Below, piece by piece: positions 34,269 through 45,898 of a DNA stretch of 53,019 nucleotides. Source of the stretch: Chitinophagaceae bacterium. Lineage in GTDB: Bacteria > Bacteroidota > Bacteroidia > Chitinophagales > UBA10324. A model generated the notes under the pieces. It searched no databases, was not told the origin of the DNA, and was given only the letters and a program-made list of their open reading frames with translations. Numbering within the stretch: position 1 is the stretch's first letter; each line of letters begins with the position of its first letter. The position numbers and the translations under genes are program-made. The DNA lies in assembly GCA_947474435.1 (NCBI GenBank), contig CANJII010000025.1, positions 1 through 53,019 on the forward strand, in the 5' to 3' direction.

Positions 34269-37200
34269 ATGGAATACAAGTTTAGCGAGATAGAAGAGCA
34301 GATAAAAAAATTCTGGAGCGATAAAAATATTTATCGGGTTGGTGATGCTGAGAGCGGAAAGCCCAAGTATTATGTGCTCGATATGTTTCCGTATCCGAGC
34401 GGCGCGGGTCTACATGTTGGGCATCCGCTTGGATACATTGCAAGCGATATTTATTCGCGCTACATGCGCATGAAGGGTTTCAATGTGTTACACCCGATGG
34501 GTTATGATTCGTTCGGATTGCCTGCTGAACAATATGCGATTCAAACCGGACAACATCCTGCAATCACCACCGAACAAAACATTAAACGGTTTCGTGAGCA
34601 GTATGATAAGATGGGATTTTGTTTCGACTGGAGCCGTGAAGTAAAAACCAGCGACCCCGAATTTTATAAATGGACACAGTGGATTTTCATTCAGTTGTTC
34701 AACTCATGGTATAACAACACAACGGATAAAGCAGAAAATATTTCTTCGCTCGAAAAAATTTTCGGAGCAGAAGGAAATGCAAATGTGAAAGCTGCTCACG
34801 GGGAAATCCCTCTCCTTAGTAGAGGGCAGGGTGAGGCTTTTTCTGCGGATGAATGGAAGAATTTTAGCGAGAGTGAGCAACAGGAAATTCTGATGCAGTA
34901 TAGGTTGGCTTTTCTTTCTGAGGCGTATGTGAACTGGTGTCCTGCATTGGGAACTGTTCTGGCGAATGATGAAGTAAAAGACGGAGTGAGCGAGCGCGGC
35001 GGCTATCCGGTTGAACGAAAATTAATGAAGCAATGGATGTTGCGCATCACGGCTTATGCTGAAAGATTGCTGCGTGGTTTGAATGATTTGCAGTGGAGTG
35101 AATCCATTAAAGAAGCACAACGAAACTGGATTGGAAGAAGTGAAGGAGCATCCGCAAAATTTCAGATTGCAGATTCTAAATTACAGATTGAAGTTTTCAC
35201 CACTCGCCCCGACACAATTTTCGGTGTAACATTTTTAACATTGGCGCCTGAGCATGAACTGATAAATAAAATCACTCCCGACTCGCATAAAAAAGAAGTG
35301 GAAGAATATGTGCTCTACGCTAAGAACAGAAGTGAGCGCGAGCGCATGACCGAAGTGAAAAAAATCACCGGAGTATTTACGGGCACTCATGCCATTCATC
35401 CGTTCACCGGAAAACAAATTCCGGTTTGGATTGGCGAATATGTTTTGGCGGGATACGGAACCGGCGCGGTGATGGGAGTTCCGGGTCACGACAGCCGCGA
35501 TTATGGTTTTGCAAAACATTTCAATCTCGAAATCATTGAAGTGGTTAGCCCCATCCCTAACCCTTCCCCTGAGGGGAAGGGAACAGGCGCGACCAACTCT
35601 ATCCCCTTAGGGGAGAGCCGGAGTGGGGCTGAAGCTTTTGAAGGCGAAGGAAAAAATATCAACTCTGCTTTTCTCGACGGATTGAAAACTGTGGAGGCAA
35701 AAAAGAAAGTAATTGATGAGATTGAGAAAAATAAAATCGGTGAGCGTAAAATAAATTTCAAACAACGCGATGCGGTGTTTGGTCGCCAGCGTTACTGGGG
35801 CGAACCCATTCCGGTTTATTATGATGAGCAAAATATTCCGAGGGTGGTGGATGAAAATGATTTGCCCATTCGCTTGCCCGAAGTAGATAAATATCTGCCG
35901 ACAGAAACCGGCGAGCCGCCTCTTGCGAATGCAAAAAACTGGAAGTACAAAAACAAATTTGAGTTTGAGAAAACCACCATGCCCGGTTGGGCTGGCAGCA
36001 GTTGGTACTTGTTTCGTTACATGGACCCCCACAACAAAAATGCATTTGCCGGAAAAGACAAACTCGATTACTGGAAGCAGGTTGACTTTTACATCGGTGG
36101 CAACGAACACGCCACGGGGCACTTAATGTATTTCCGTTTCTGGACAAAATTTTTGAAAGACCTTGGCTTGGTTGATATTGAAGAACCCGCAAAGAGATTG
36201 GTGAATCAAGGGATGATAACTGGAAGTTCAAGATTTGTATATAGAATTGTCATTAAGAATAAAAATAGTTCAGATAATGTTCCATATAAATTTCCAATTT
36301 TTGTTTCATGGAATTACTATGAAAGATTTGTAAATAGAAAAGATTTAAGCAAAGAAGAATTACGAGAAATTATTCTAAAAAATTCAGGATGGGATATTCA
36401 ATCTCCCAATAACAATTATGAAGTTTCAATTCTTCCTTTTCATGTTGATGTAAGTATTGTGGATGGAGTTGTTTTAGATATTGAAAAATTCAGGAAATCA
36501 AATTCTGAATTTGAAAAAGCAATTATTGTATCGGAAGGAATTGAAACAGAAAAATATATCTGTGGTGTTGAGATAGAAAAGATGAGTAAAAGCAAATTCA
36601 ACACTGTCAATCCTGATGACATTATTGAAAAATATGGCGCCGACTGTTTCCGCATGTATGAAATGTTTCTCGGTCCGGTTGAAATGAGCAAGCCGTGGGA
36701 CACAAAAGGAATTGATGGAGTGAGCCGCTTCCTGCGCAAACTCTGGAAATTATTTTACAGCGATGATGGAAAATGGTTAGTGACAAATGAAGCCGCCACC
36801 AATGATGAATTAAAAATTCTGCACAAGACCATTAAGAAAGTAGAAGACGATATTGAAAAACTTTCTTACAACACTTCAGTCAGTGCATTCATGATTTGCG
36901 TAAACGAACTCACCGATTTAAAATGTCACAAAGCAGAAGTGCTGAAAGATTTGTTGCTCATACTTTCTCCGTTCGCTCCGTTCACCACTGAGTTTCTCTG
37001 GCAGAAATTGGCGGAGGACAAAAGCTCCCCCTTAGGGGGAGTTGAGGGGGCTATTGTTACAACTGAATTCCCGAAAGTGAGAGAAGAATTGCTGGTTGAA
37101 AATTCTTTTGAATATCCAATCGCCATCAATGGAAAAACAAAAACAAAAATCACTTTTGCACTCGATAAAGAAATTTCAACAATTGAAAAAGAAGTTCTTG

Positions 37201-37289
37201 ATATGGAAATTCTGAAAAAATATTTTGAAGGAAGAGCACCGAAGAAAATAATTGTAGTGAAAGGGAAAATGATAAATGTGGTTGTTTGA
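34269..37289 (+). CDS. leuS: Leucyl-tRNA synthetase with three in-frame palindromic insertions
   Basis: Charges tRNA-Leu with leucine. The class I signatures are intact: HVGH at residues 49-52 (PSGAGLHVGHPLGY) and KMSKS at 771-775. The editing domain (TRPDTIFGVTFLTLAPEHEL, GTGAVMGVPGHDSRDYGFAK) and the anticodon-binding region are present. A Bacteroidota-type insertion precedes KMSKS; here it is long and AT-rich (about 36220-36560). At 1006 aa the protein is longer than the usual 920-950 aa of Bacteroidota. Part of the excess comes from three GC-rich palindromes at residues 176-189, 427-454 and 919-928, translated as HGEIPLLSRGQGEA, SPIPNPSPEGKGTG (with more following) and SSPLGGVEGA. All keep the frame. 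The ATG at 34269 follows a TAnnTTTG box. Confidence 0.96.
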   Translation: MEYKFSEIEEQIKKFWSDKNIYRVGDAESGKPKYYVLDMFPYPSGAGLHVGHPLGYIASDIYSRYMRMKGFNVLHPMGYDSFGLPAEQYAIQTGQHPAITTEQNIKRFREQYDKMGFCFDWSREVKTSDPEFYKWTQWIFIQLFNSWYNNTTDKAENISSLEKIFGAEGNANVKAAHGEIPLLSRGQGEAFSADEWKNFSESEQQEILMQYRLAFLSEAYVNWCPALGTVLANDEVKDGVSERGGYPVERKLMKQWMLRITAYAERLLRGLNDLQWSESIKEAQRNWIGRSEGASAKFQIADSKLQIEVFTTRPDTIFGVTFLTLAPEHELINKITPDSHKKEVEEYVLYAKNRSERERMTEVKKITGVFTGTHAIHPFTGKQIPVWIGEYVLAGYGTGAVMGVPGHDSRDYGFAKHFNLEIIEVVSPIPNPSPEGKGTGATNSIPLGESRSGAEAFEGEGKNINSAFLDGLKTVEAKKKVIDEIEKNKIGERKINFKQRDAVFGRQRYWGEPIPVYYDEQNIPRVVDENDLPIRLPEVDKYLPTETGEPPLANAKNWKYKNKFEFEKTTMPGWAGSSWYLFRYMDPHNKNAFAGKDKLDYWKQVDFYIGGNEHATGHLMYFRFWTKFLKDLGLVDIEEPAKRLVNQGMITGSSRFVYRIVIKNKNSSDNVPYKFPIFVSWNYYERFVNRKDLSKEELREIILKNSGWDIQSPNNNYEVSILPFHVDVSIVDGVVLDIEKFRKSNSEFEKAIIVSEGIETEKYICGVEIEKMSKSKFNTVNPDDIIEKYGADCFRMYEMFLGPVEMSKPWDTKGIDGVSRFLRKLWKLFYSDDGKWLVTNEAATNDELKILHKTIKKVEDDIEKLSYNTSVSAFMICVNELTDLKCHKAEVLKDLLLILSPFAPFTTEFLWQKLAEDKSSPLGGVEGAIVTTEFPKVREELLVENSFEYPIAINGKTKTKITFALDKEISTIEKEVLDMEILKKYFEGRAPKKIIVVKGKMINVVV
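34795..34835. repeat. Palindromic element 1 inside leuS
   Basis: CCCTCT (34808-34813) and AGAGGG (34821-34826) pair around CCTTAGT. An outer CTCAC (34795-34799) pairs with GTGAG (34831-34835). It encodes about 14 residues of LeuRS between the conserved KAA and ADEW segments. Confidence 0.8.
35547..35630. repeat. Composite palindromic element 2 inside leuS
   Basis: An 84-bp unit: outer arms AGCCCCA (35547-35553) and TGGGGCT (35624-35630) enclose a perfect 9-bp hairpin (35561-35569 with 35573-35581) and a second one around TCCCCTTAGGGGA. It adds 28 codons in a loop of the editing domain. Confidence 0.85.
37023..37052. repeat. Palindromic element 3 inside leuS
   Basis: CTCCCCC (37025-37031), TTA, GGGGGAG (37035-37041), then AGGGGGCT: the same kind of GC-rich unit, in the C-terminal region of the synthetase, encoding about 10 residues. 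Confidence 0.8.
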
Positions 37290-42182: not shown

Positions 42183-42190
42183 AAAATTTT

Positions 42191-42392
42191 ACTCCTTCGT
42201 TTATCAAACGCTCTCTCTTGCTAAAGAGAGAGTGGATGCGTGACAACGCTGAATGTTAGATGTGGGAGAGAGAGTTGTTCTTTACTCCACCACCACCTTC
42301 TTCATCACCAACCCATCTGCGGTTTTGAGGCGGATGAAATAAATTCCTTTGCTGAGTGTGGTGAGGTGCAGGGTTTGTGTTGGGGTGTTACA
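42191..42392. repeat. 202-bp direct repeat, copy 1
   Basis: Equal in length to 44211-44412 and differing at about six positions. It starts with a palindrome (CTCTCTCTT/AAAGAGAGAG) of about 30 bp and ends inside sorting-domain fragment B. Confidence 0.88.
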
Positions 42393-44160: not shown

Positions 44161-44210
44161 AATTCTAATCAGACAAAGAAAAAAAATATTTTCTATAACT
44201 GTTAAAGAAT

Positions 44211-44412
44211 ACTCCATCGTTTATCAAACGCTCTCTCTTGCTAAAGAGAGAGTGGATGCGTGACAACGCTGAATGTTAGATGTGGGAGAGAGAGTTGTTC
44301 TTTACTCCACCACCACCTTCTTCATCACCAACCCATCAGCAGTTTTGAGGCGGATGAAATAAACTCCCTTGCTGAGTGTGGTGAGGTTCAGGGTTTGTGT
44401 TGGGGTGTTACA
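44211..44412. repeat. 202-bp direct repeat, copy 2
   Basis: About 97% identical to 42191-42392 and exactly the same length, lying 2,020 bases downstream. It carries the same palindrome and the 3' part of a sorting-domain fragment. Confidence 0.88.
44302..44412 (-). pseudogene. T9SS sorting-domain fragment D (truncated)
   Basis: Minus-strand translation ends GVYFIRLKTADGLVMKKVVV plus E before TAA. The sequence is cut at 44412, where the toxin gene region begins. A 9-bp inverted repeat (44413-44421 and 44440-44448) marks the junction. Confidence 0.82.
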
Positions 44413-45725: not shown

Positions 45726-45733
45726 TTTGGAAG

Positions 45734-45862
45734 AAAAGTTAAGTTTGTGAGCGCGAGAAAACCTGCTGGTGAAAACACACAGGCAGGGGCGGGAGGGGAG
45801 AAACACCAACAAACTAAAAAAAGTTAAGTTTGTGAGCGCGAGAAAACCTGCTGGTGAAAACA
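45734..45862. repeat. Pair of 44-bp direct repeats
   Basis: 45734-45777 and 45819-45862 are essentially identical (core GTTTGTGAGCGCGAGAAAAC), separated by 41 bases that are G-rich at first. Only two units, so not a CRISPR array. Confidence 0.8.
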
Positions 45863-45898
45863 AAATTGCAGTTGAATATTATTAGGTTTGATGATGAT

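Follow-up and report, generated by a model that had tools for sequence, protein, structure and literature searches.

The leucyl-tRNA synthetase gene (leuS) of a Chitinophagaceae bacterium carries three GC-rich palindromic inserts, E1 to E3. We interpret these, with a probability of about 0.74, as short, nuclease-less derivatives of a mobile element in which a Vsr-type nuclease gene is bounded by palindromes and which inserts in frame into host genes without splicing. The simplest account of the anatomy, as compared across genomes, would be a single element type in three states: a nuclease-bearing form, a two-ended form without the open reading frame (ORF) (E2), and a single unit (E1 and E3). 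It is the finding of the nuclease-bearing form that shifts the reading from another Rickettsia palindromic element (RPE) to the short form of a nuclease element. The window referred to below is the whole 53,019-nucleotide (nt) stretch of DNA that was analyzed.

leuS occupies positions 34269 to 37289 on the forward strand and is open throughout, encoding a 1,006-amino-acid (aa) protein with a Pfam editing domain (PF13603) and class I synthetase domains. The original prediction placed three inverted repeats at 34795 to 34835, 35547 to 35630, and 37023 to 37052, and they were located at those coordinates. They had been described as far richer in GC than the gene, and this is the case (0.59, 0.64, and 0.67 for E1, E2, and E3, respectively, versus 0.41 for leuS). 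E1 is a single palindromic unit at 34808 to 34838 (forward strand), about 31 nt that replace about 7 nt of host sequence. E2, at 35547 to 35630 (forward strand), is a composite of two inverted units within outer arms and substitutes 84 nt for 21 nt of host sequence; its left unit (35547 to 35586, forward strand) is comprised of the arm AGCCCCATCCCTAACC and then a hairpin, and its right unit (35593 to 35632, reverse strand) is inverted. E3 is a single unit at 37025 to 37051 (forward strand), a clean 27-nt in-frame insertion with no loss of host sequence. The motif CCCCTNAGGGG occurs three times in the window, always in leuS (twice in E2 and once in E3), and at least three occurrences were seen in 0 of 100 dinucleotide shuffles.

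Folded as single-stranded DNA, E2 was more stable than its shuffles (z = -2.74), and its fold agrees with the predicted composite of two hairpins in outer arms. E1 and E3 folded no better than shuffles (z = -0.36 and -1.19, respectively). The case for these two elements therefore depends on comparison with relatives and on the other copies rather than on folding energy. An inverted-repeat search of the window did not have the leuS hairpins among its output. When LeuRS was aligned with that of T. thermophilus, E1 fell within an unaligned stretch (residues 146 to 211) and E2 and E3 fell at gaps, which only suggests that these are permissive places; the surface-loop positions named in the original prediction are therefore putative. 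The AlphaFold model of the whole protein (seven sequences) was of low confidence, with a mean pLDDT of 50.8.

leuS was compared, as protein and as DNA, with that of five same-genus genomes. In this alignment with close relatives, for which the original prediction had called, the residue blocks were missing: E1 was absent in 5/5 congeners (with lengths measured between anchors in 3/5), E3 was absent in 5/5 (anchors found in 3/5), and E2 was absent in 4/5 (anchors found in 5/5), the remaining genome, G004, having a diverged copy at the same place. The net gain relative to the same-genus genes was 24 nt for E1, 63 nt for E2, and 27 nt for E3, all multiples of three; it is below the block lengths of 41, 84, and 30 nt because E1 and E2 replaced host sequence. 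The reading frame is kept, as predicted, and the sizes had been overestimated: 8, 21, and 9 codons were gained rather than about 14, 28, and 10. No target-site duplication was visible at E3, and E1 and E2 replace host bases. Judged from these alignments, E1 to E3 are real in-frame insertions.

Two further observations came from the same comparison. Residues ~665 to 725 of LeuRS (window, ~36260 to 36440) had no match in three congeners, in which the matches end at 664/665 and restart at 725 to 762 and the rest is 78 to 94% identical, as if recombination had replaced the stretch. Contig C138 of G005 has a second partial LeuRS frame of 793 aa and lower identity, which is possibly contamination.

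The palindromic units are dispersed through the 3.5-Mb genome. The CCCCTNAGGGG core was present at 11 places, versus 0 for a reversed control pattern, and R1, a model of the units described below, gave 31 matches at an E value of ≤0.1, the left unit of E2 among them. Seven of the 30 unit loci that were read have an open frame that extends for 50 or more codons to each side of the element (L195, L196, L197, leuS, L213, L214, and L224), and the intragenic hosts, named by reading the sequence rather than by family search, include DnaE-, PyrD-, TsaE-, SufD-, and BtuF-like genes. In the gene resembling pyrD (dihydroorotate dehydrogenase), about 33 nt have given way to the element without loss of the frame, and the element is missing from all five congeners. 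A frequent form of the unit in this genome is AGCCTCACCCCTAACCCCTCTCC-TAA-GGAGAGGGG. Counts of the pattern CCCCTN{1,4}AGGGG exceeded the reversed control in this and the same-genus genomes, and in several other relatives they were uninformative, the control being equally high.

These copies, several of them within other ORFs, bear out the expectation of nucleotide matches elsewhere in the genome, coding sequence included. Together with the empty congener sites, they uphold the view of E1 to E3 as mobile, in-frame, RPE-like palindromes. Conservation of the blocks as LeuRS residues and a lack of other copies in the genome had been named as what would speak against that view, and neither was found. 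The reading of the blocks as normal conserved LeuRS residues or as chance GC-rich sequence draws on the folding of E1 and E3, no better than that of shuffles; it is refuted by the empty sites, the genome-wide copies, and the specific match to R1, and we give it next to no credence.

Other repeats are present in the window. A different repeat, with the hairpin CTCTCTCTT-GCTA-AAGAGAGAG, occurs in near-identical copies at ~42190 to 42279 and ~44210 to 44299. The three elements had been thought to resemble the unit of the CTCTCTCTT/AAAGAGAGAG repeat island (42211 to 42232 and 44231 to 44252), and this likeness was not supported, as R1 had no match there at an E value of ≤1. A repeat with GTTAAGTTTGTGAGCGCG(A/G)GAAAACC is found twice in the window (45731 to 45871) and three times around a Y1_Tnp gene of this genome (locus L053, positions 978 to 1003, 1358 to 1383, and 2162 to 2187); it may be the genome's own RAYT-linked repeat.

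The LeuRS alignment also revealed that three genomes of the same family (G009, G011, and G012) have in-frame, nuclease-like inserts of 164 to 199 aa, which correspond to Pfam DUF559. Such inserts in the leuS genes of relatives are in frame, are ~150 to 370 aa long, and have palindromes of this kind at their edges. With this genome counted in both sets, 17 of 40 genomes had DUF559, as did 102 of the 198 that were sampled from the class. Among the best 150 matches listed for the 198-genome set, a selection biased by its best-first order, 58 belong to open frames that span 350 aa or more. The named loci are the best 80 of 551 from a contig search. A local profile re-found 138 of 140 DUF559 loci, with 47 of the 138 in ORFs of at least 300 aa; some of these ORFs (e.g., L079) may be natural fusions and were left out of the host count. 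According to NCBIfam or Pfam, DUF559 lies inside LeuRS, MetH, AcsA (acetate-CoA ligase/acetyl-CoA synthetase), CinA, ValRS, IleRS, RecJ, PriA, PaaZ, and HsdR; it is N-terminal in guanylate kinase and IspF and C-terminal in HemE and in a PurL/PurQ-like ORF. The 20 LeuRS proteins with DUF559 have it at two sites, 14 at approximately residue 303 of our LeuRS (including that of G187) and 6 at approximately residue 560 (including those of G075 and G115).

The edges of 27 inserts in LeuRS, MetH, AcsA, and CinA were inspected. The order was mostly host frame, palindromic units, DUF559, inverted unit, and host again; in L177, L182, L167, L170, and L172, the left part examined was too short to show palindromes. 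The edge units code for peptides, for example, LTPNPSPEERG and LPLGEDLGG. The 32 embedded inserts searched with a hairpin-unit filter have 64 sides, and a unit was detected on 34 of these, with the arms outward in 16/18 cases on the left and 11/16 on the right. At their left ends, E2 and the DUF559 element found in acsA of L191 are identical at 32 of 35 positions (score of 26, versus a maximum of 14 for 100 shuffled queries), and the right end of the latter has a weaker local match to the right unit of E2 (14 versus 12); this pair was chosen after the 27 inserts had been viewed, so the link between E2 and the nuclease-bearing form rests on the model tests instead. The ends are common to E1 to E3 and the enzyme-bearing copies, as in a MITE-like relationship. 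At the sequence level, then, the full form resides in frame in leuS and in other core genes of relatives, with palindromic edges and with its putative catalytic residues kept.

Further configurations were observed among these loci. The LeuRS of G187 (L255) has the longest insert at site 303, with 396 aa between the compared residues, and contains repeats of a palindrome-coded peptide (e.g., PSPRGEGSGERF), as if units had been amplified in place. DUF559 genes of a Rickettsiaceae MAG (L107) and a Coxiella sp. MAG (L094) lie between strong inverted matches (scores of 45 and 29, respectively), a lead on RPE-type movement, as palindromic repeats have been described in those groups. Our genome has three DUF559 genes, of which only that at L060 sits among such palindromes, with weak profile scores: a tandem array of related palindromes (1840 to 2321) adjoins this gene, the genome's best DUF559 match, and it is possible that L060 is the partner copy of E1 to E3 within the genome. 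Related palindromes lie on contigs C35 and C57 (L218, L219, L221, and L223), and the array on C57 resembles that of L060.

DUF559 is a Pfam label still of unknown function. When its profile was compared with the PDB, it matched 3hrl (E = 2.6e-37) and the homing endonuclease I-Bth0305I (3r3p; E = 2.5e-6). The predicted structure (mean pLDDT, 86.1) aligned with 3hrl over 93 residues (Z = 15.5; rmsd, 1.3), with 3r3p over 94 (Z = 11.7; rmsd, 2.7), and with Vsr (1cw0) over 99 (Z = 10.0; rmsd, 2.2); a Foldseek search also was run. This relation in sequence and predicted fold to I-Bth0305I, and in predicted fold to Vsr, identifies DUF559 as an EDxHD/Vsr-type domain. A DUF559 gene had been assigned in passing to the EDxHD homing family in the available text of PMC9403480. 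Five putative catalytic residues are retained by all 46 copies whose ORFs reach 300 aa or more (45/46 for the first residue, with one gap), and among the 88 other copies, 81 to 87 retain them; these conserved residues suggest a putative DNA cleavage activity. The dN/dS ratios of three embedded DUF559 pairs were 0.16, 0.15, and 0.10 by a simple method in which saturation is possible.

A homing-type nuclease in frame within conserved genes, related to a mobile-intron protein, raises the question of whether the nuclease-bearing inserts are spliced inteins or introns. No Rfam intron was found at the gathering score in L139, L132, L182, or L191. No intein (Hint) domain was found by Pfam at an E value of ≤0.01 in L139, L132, L191, or L112, in which the only matches were to host domains, to DUF559, and to the related MTES_1575 model. 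Intron and intein are rejected for these inserts, the short forms are too small for either, and we regard splicing as very improbable.

Eighteen genomes, chosen around DUF559 carriers, were compared for LeuRS inserts. DUF559 was present in LeuRS at site 303 in 1/6 members of one genus (g52) and 3/5 members of one family (f24) and at site 560 in 1/3 and 3/4 members of two other genera (g72 and g68, respectively). G119 has DUF559 at site 560 and, at site 303, a two-palindrome element without DUF559 whose build is like that of E2; G230 has a single palindrome without the nuclease at site 560. The short forms of these two genomes indicate that all three forms (full, double, and single) are found at the same positions in LeuRS. 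Comparison of the genes thus places short forms at the leuS sites of full elements in other genomes, with units dispersed and full elements present or absent between congeners. In a 129-row tree of DUF559 (short alignment, many unresolved forks), LeuRS-303 needs 7 changes (shuffled-label mean, 12.5; clustered) and LeuRS-560 needs 4 (no clustering), and the idea of one nuclease lineage per LeuRS site was not supported. Most of the embedded copies belong to a single group of 42 (SH-aLRT, 96), and the mixture of host genes within it is what movement of elements between genes would be expected to yield.

To build model R1, we used 29 of 34 units beside DUF559 inserts, with our genome and the genomes known to be of its family excluded (named loci lack a family code). 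Run on both strands of the whole 53-kb window at an E value of ≤1, it gave six matches, all to leuS elements: the left unit of E2 (E = 3.9e-5, the top match in the window), E3 (37021 to 37056, reverse strand; E = 0.0034), the right unit of E2 (E = 0.0068), E1 (34806 to 34841, reverse strand; E = 0.016), and two that repeat these palindromes on the opposite strand. A profile of R1's alignment was applied to 91 stand-alone DUF559 loci outside that alignment, and 62 of its 72 matches were within 400 bp of the domain (density ratio of 28). At least one nearby match was found at 28 of these loci, on both sides at 12, and 63 loci were without one. Twenty-six leuS control loci gave four matches, three at the E2 copy of G004 and one in L037. 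In a separate analysis, the sequences flanking DUF559 on its two sides were compared with each other in inverted orientation, and the best match was above the 99% cross-locus level at 26/80 loci, versus 0/67 for shifted flanks; the other 54 of the 80 were without a strong inverted pair.

DUF559 and the units also occur together across genomes. Of the 198 genomes, 68 have both DUF559 and R1 units, 34 have DUF559 only, 21 have units only, and 75 have neither, which corresponds to an odds ratio of 7.1 (P = 2e-10) without phylogenetic correction, for a model partly trained on some of these genomes and with at most 33 units scored per genome. Seven of the 60 genomes with at least 3 units had no DUF559 detected. 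DUF559 is present in 33/35 genomes with at least 10 units and in 23/25 with at least 20, and the two genomes without it in the former set are 87% and 78% complete. These data bear on an explanation in which the units are ordinary REPs moved by RAYT (Y1_Tnp) and DUF559 is unrelated. Our genome does have three Y1_Tnp matches, Y1_Tnp is present in 143 of the 198 genomes, and it is found in 33/35 genomes with at least 10 units and in 25/25 with at least 20. However, the unit profile had 0 matches at the three RAYT loci of our genome (L052 to L054), and the Y1_Tnp gene of L052 is adjoined, by eye, by other hairpins (e.g., GTCCC..GGGAC). Scored as at least one unit, the association with DUF559 was significant in both Y1-positive and Y1-negative genomes (odds ratios of 5.6 and 8.0, respectively), whereas that with Y1 was not significant within the DUF559 strata (1.9, P = 0.25; 2.8, P = 0.08). 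The units border DUF559 itself, and we consider movement by RAYT unlikely.

A second alternative accepts the anatomy of the best explanation and differs from it only in the mobilizer: the palindromes would spread by an unknown route, as has been said of CGTC REPs, and DUF559 would travel with them as a passenger, for which they serve as landing sites or ends. Most unit copies in our genome are without DUF559 nearby, many DUF559 genes are without nearby units, and the available text of PMC3733652 describes intragenic REPs as well as REPs that have no dedicated transposase. Against this, the ORF and the palindromes form one insert with palindromic edges across many unrelated genes, the catalytic-type residues are intact and dN/dS is low, and short forms occupy the LeuRS sites of full elements. 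A passenger role appears doubtful, if less so than movement by RAYT, and on balance we expect that it is DUF559 that drives movement of the element.

The derivation of E1 to E3 from a nuclease-bearing element could proceed as follows. The full form would be a Vsr-type (EDxHD/DUF559) endonuclease ORF between two inverted, GC-rich palindromic units. The nuclease would cut or nick target DNA, and repair that copies an element, or that is primed by the end units, would paste in a full or a short form, sometimes replacing host bases (as at E1, E2, and the pyrD-like gene) and sometimes none (as at E3). No target motif or target-site duplication was identified. In essential genes, the survivors would be in-frame insertions at permissive places only, and the insert would be translated within the host enzyme without splicing. 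Short forms might arise by loss of the ORF or by the nuclease acting in trans. The palindromes probably serve as element ends recognized by the nuclease or by the repair machinery, and their open reading frames would make in-frame residence survivable. We lean towards regarding these elements as a separate, widespread class in bacteria, in which a Vsr-type nuclease ORF between inverted palindromes spreads among core enzyme genes as an unspliced in-frame domain and sheds nuclease-less palindromes.

Because the dispersed in-frame palindromes have ends, host genes, and even insertion sites in common with the nuclease-bearing full form, the mobilizing enzyme becomes directly testable. LeuRS, ValRS, and IleRS, all essential enzymes, contain a foreign nuclease domain that retains its putative active site; no splicing element was detected in those tested, and they amount to a natural domain-insertion experiment. 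For DUF559, the link to the element suggests a role. In the open-licence literature, of which coverage was partial, we found no report of DUF559 as a palindrome partner or as an in-frame insert of core enzymes; the accessible portions of papers that mention DUF559 show no link to palindromes, and the term is absent from the main texts, as available, of PMC12306157 and PMC12350094.

In-frame palindromes are not new in kind, because RPEs and intragenic REPs already have been described. According to the portions available of PMC10969869 and PMC3733652, RPEs are small palindromes in frame in unrelated protein genes, and intragenic REPs include cases in tRNA synthetases; the former source, a 2024 review, calls RPE-like protein change in other prokaryotes "conceivable." E1 to E3 resemble RPEs, by description and not by RPE sequence, in being palindromic inserts that keep the frame of the ORF and are absent from relatives (in leuS and the pyrD-like gene). 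They differ in that RPEs are described in Rickettsia, whereas these elements are in Bacteroidota and have a full form with a nuclease ORF.

CGTC REPs, as presented in the accessible text of the 2013 survey (PMC3733652), are short palindromes of several phyla, including Bacteroidetes; some are intragenic, they "apparently lack a dedicated transposase," and they include two RPE families of Rickettsia. Our units share the short palindromes, the intragenic copies, and the occurrence in Bacteroidetes. They differ in that AGCCTCACCCCTAACCCCTCTCC-TAA-GGAGAGGGG is without the AT stem start and CCA tail described there: by eye, with the tag at the end also considered, the stems are C/T-rich from the start and have no CCA tail. 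CGTC is present in a few copies in our genome (L002 and L003), ~5 nt from the stem. If our reading is correct, it offers a candidate answer to the question of which enzyme moves REP-like repeats that lack a transposase.

The enzyme is like I-Bth0305I and Vsr in nuclease fold and like I-Bth0305I in sequence. I-Bth0305I is deposited as a mobile-intron protein, whereas our searches detected no self-splicing element and the insert apparently remains part of the host protein. Inteins likewise pair a homing-type nuclease with in-frame insertion in conserved proteins, and the four DUF559-bearing proteins tested differ from them in having no intein domain. Like these elements, REPs and REPINs with their RAYT (the REPtron) have a palindromic unit that occurs in inverted pairs and in dispersed copies, and they too have a full form that includes an enzyme gene. 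The GTAG REP tag at the hairpin end was not seen in the units examined by eye (no statistic), and the three RAYT loci of our genome are without such units. Several copies here are intragenic, and the enzyme is a Vsr-type nuclease rather than an HUH tyrosine transposase; if our reading is correct, the element would be a counterpart of the RAYT/REP system with another enzyme.
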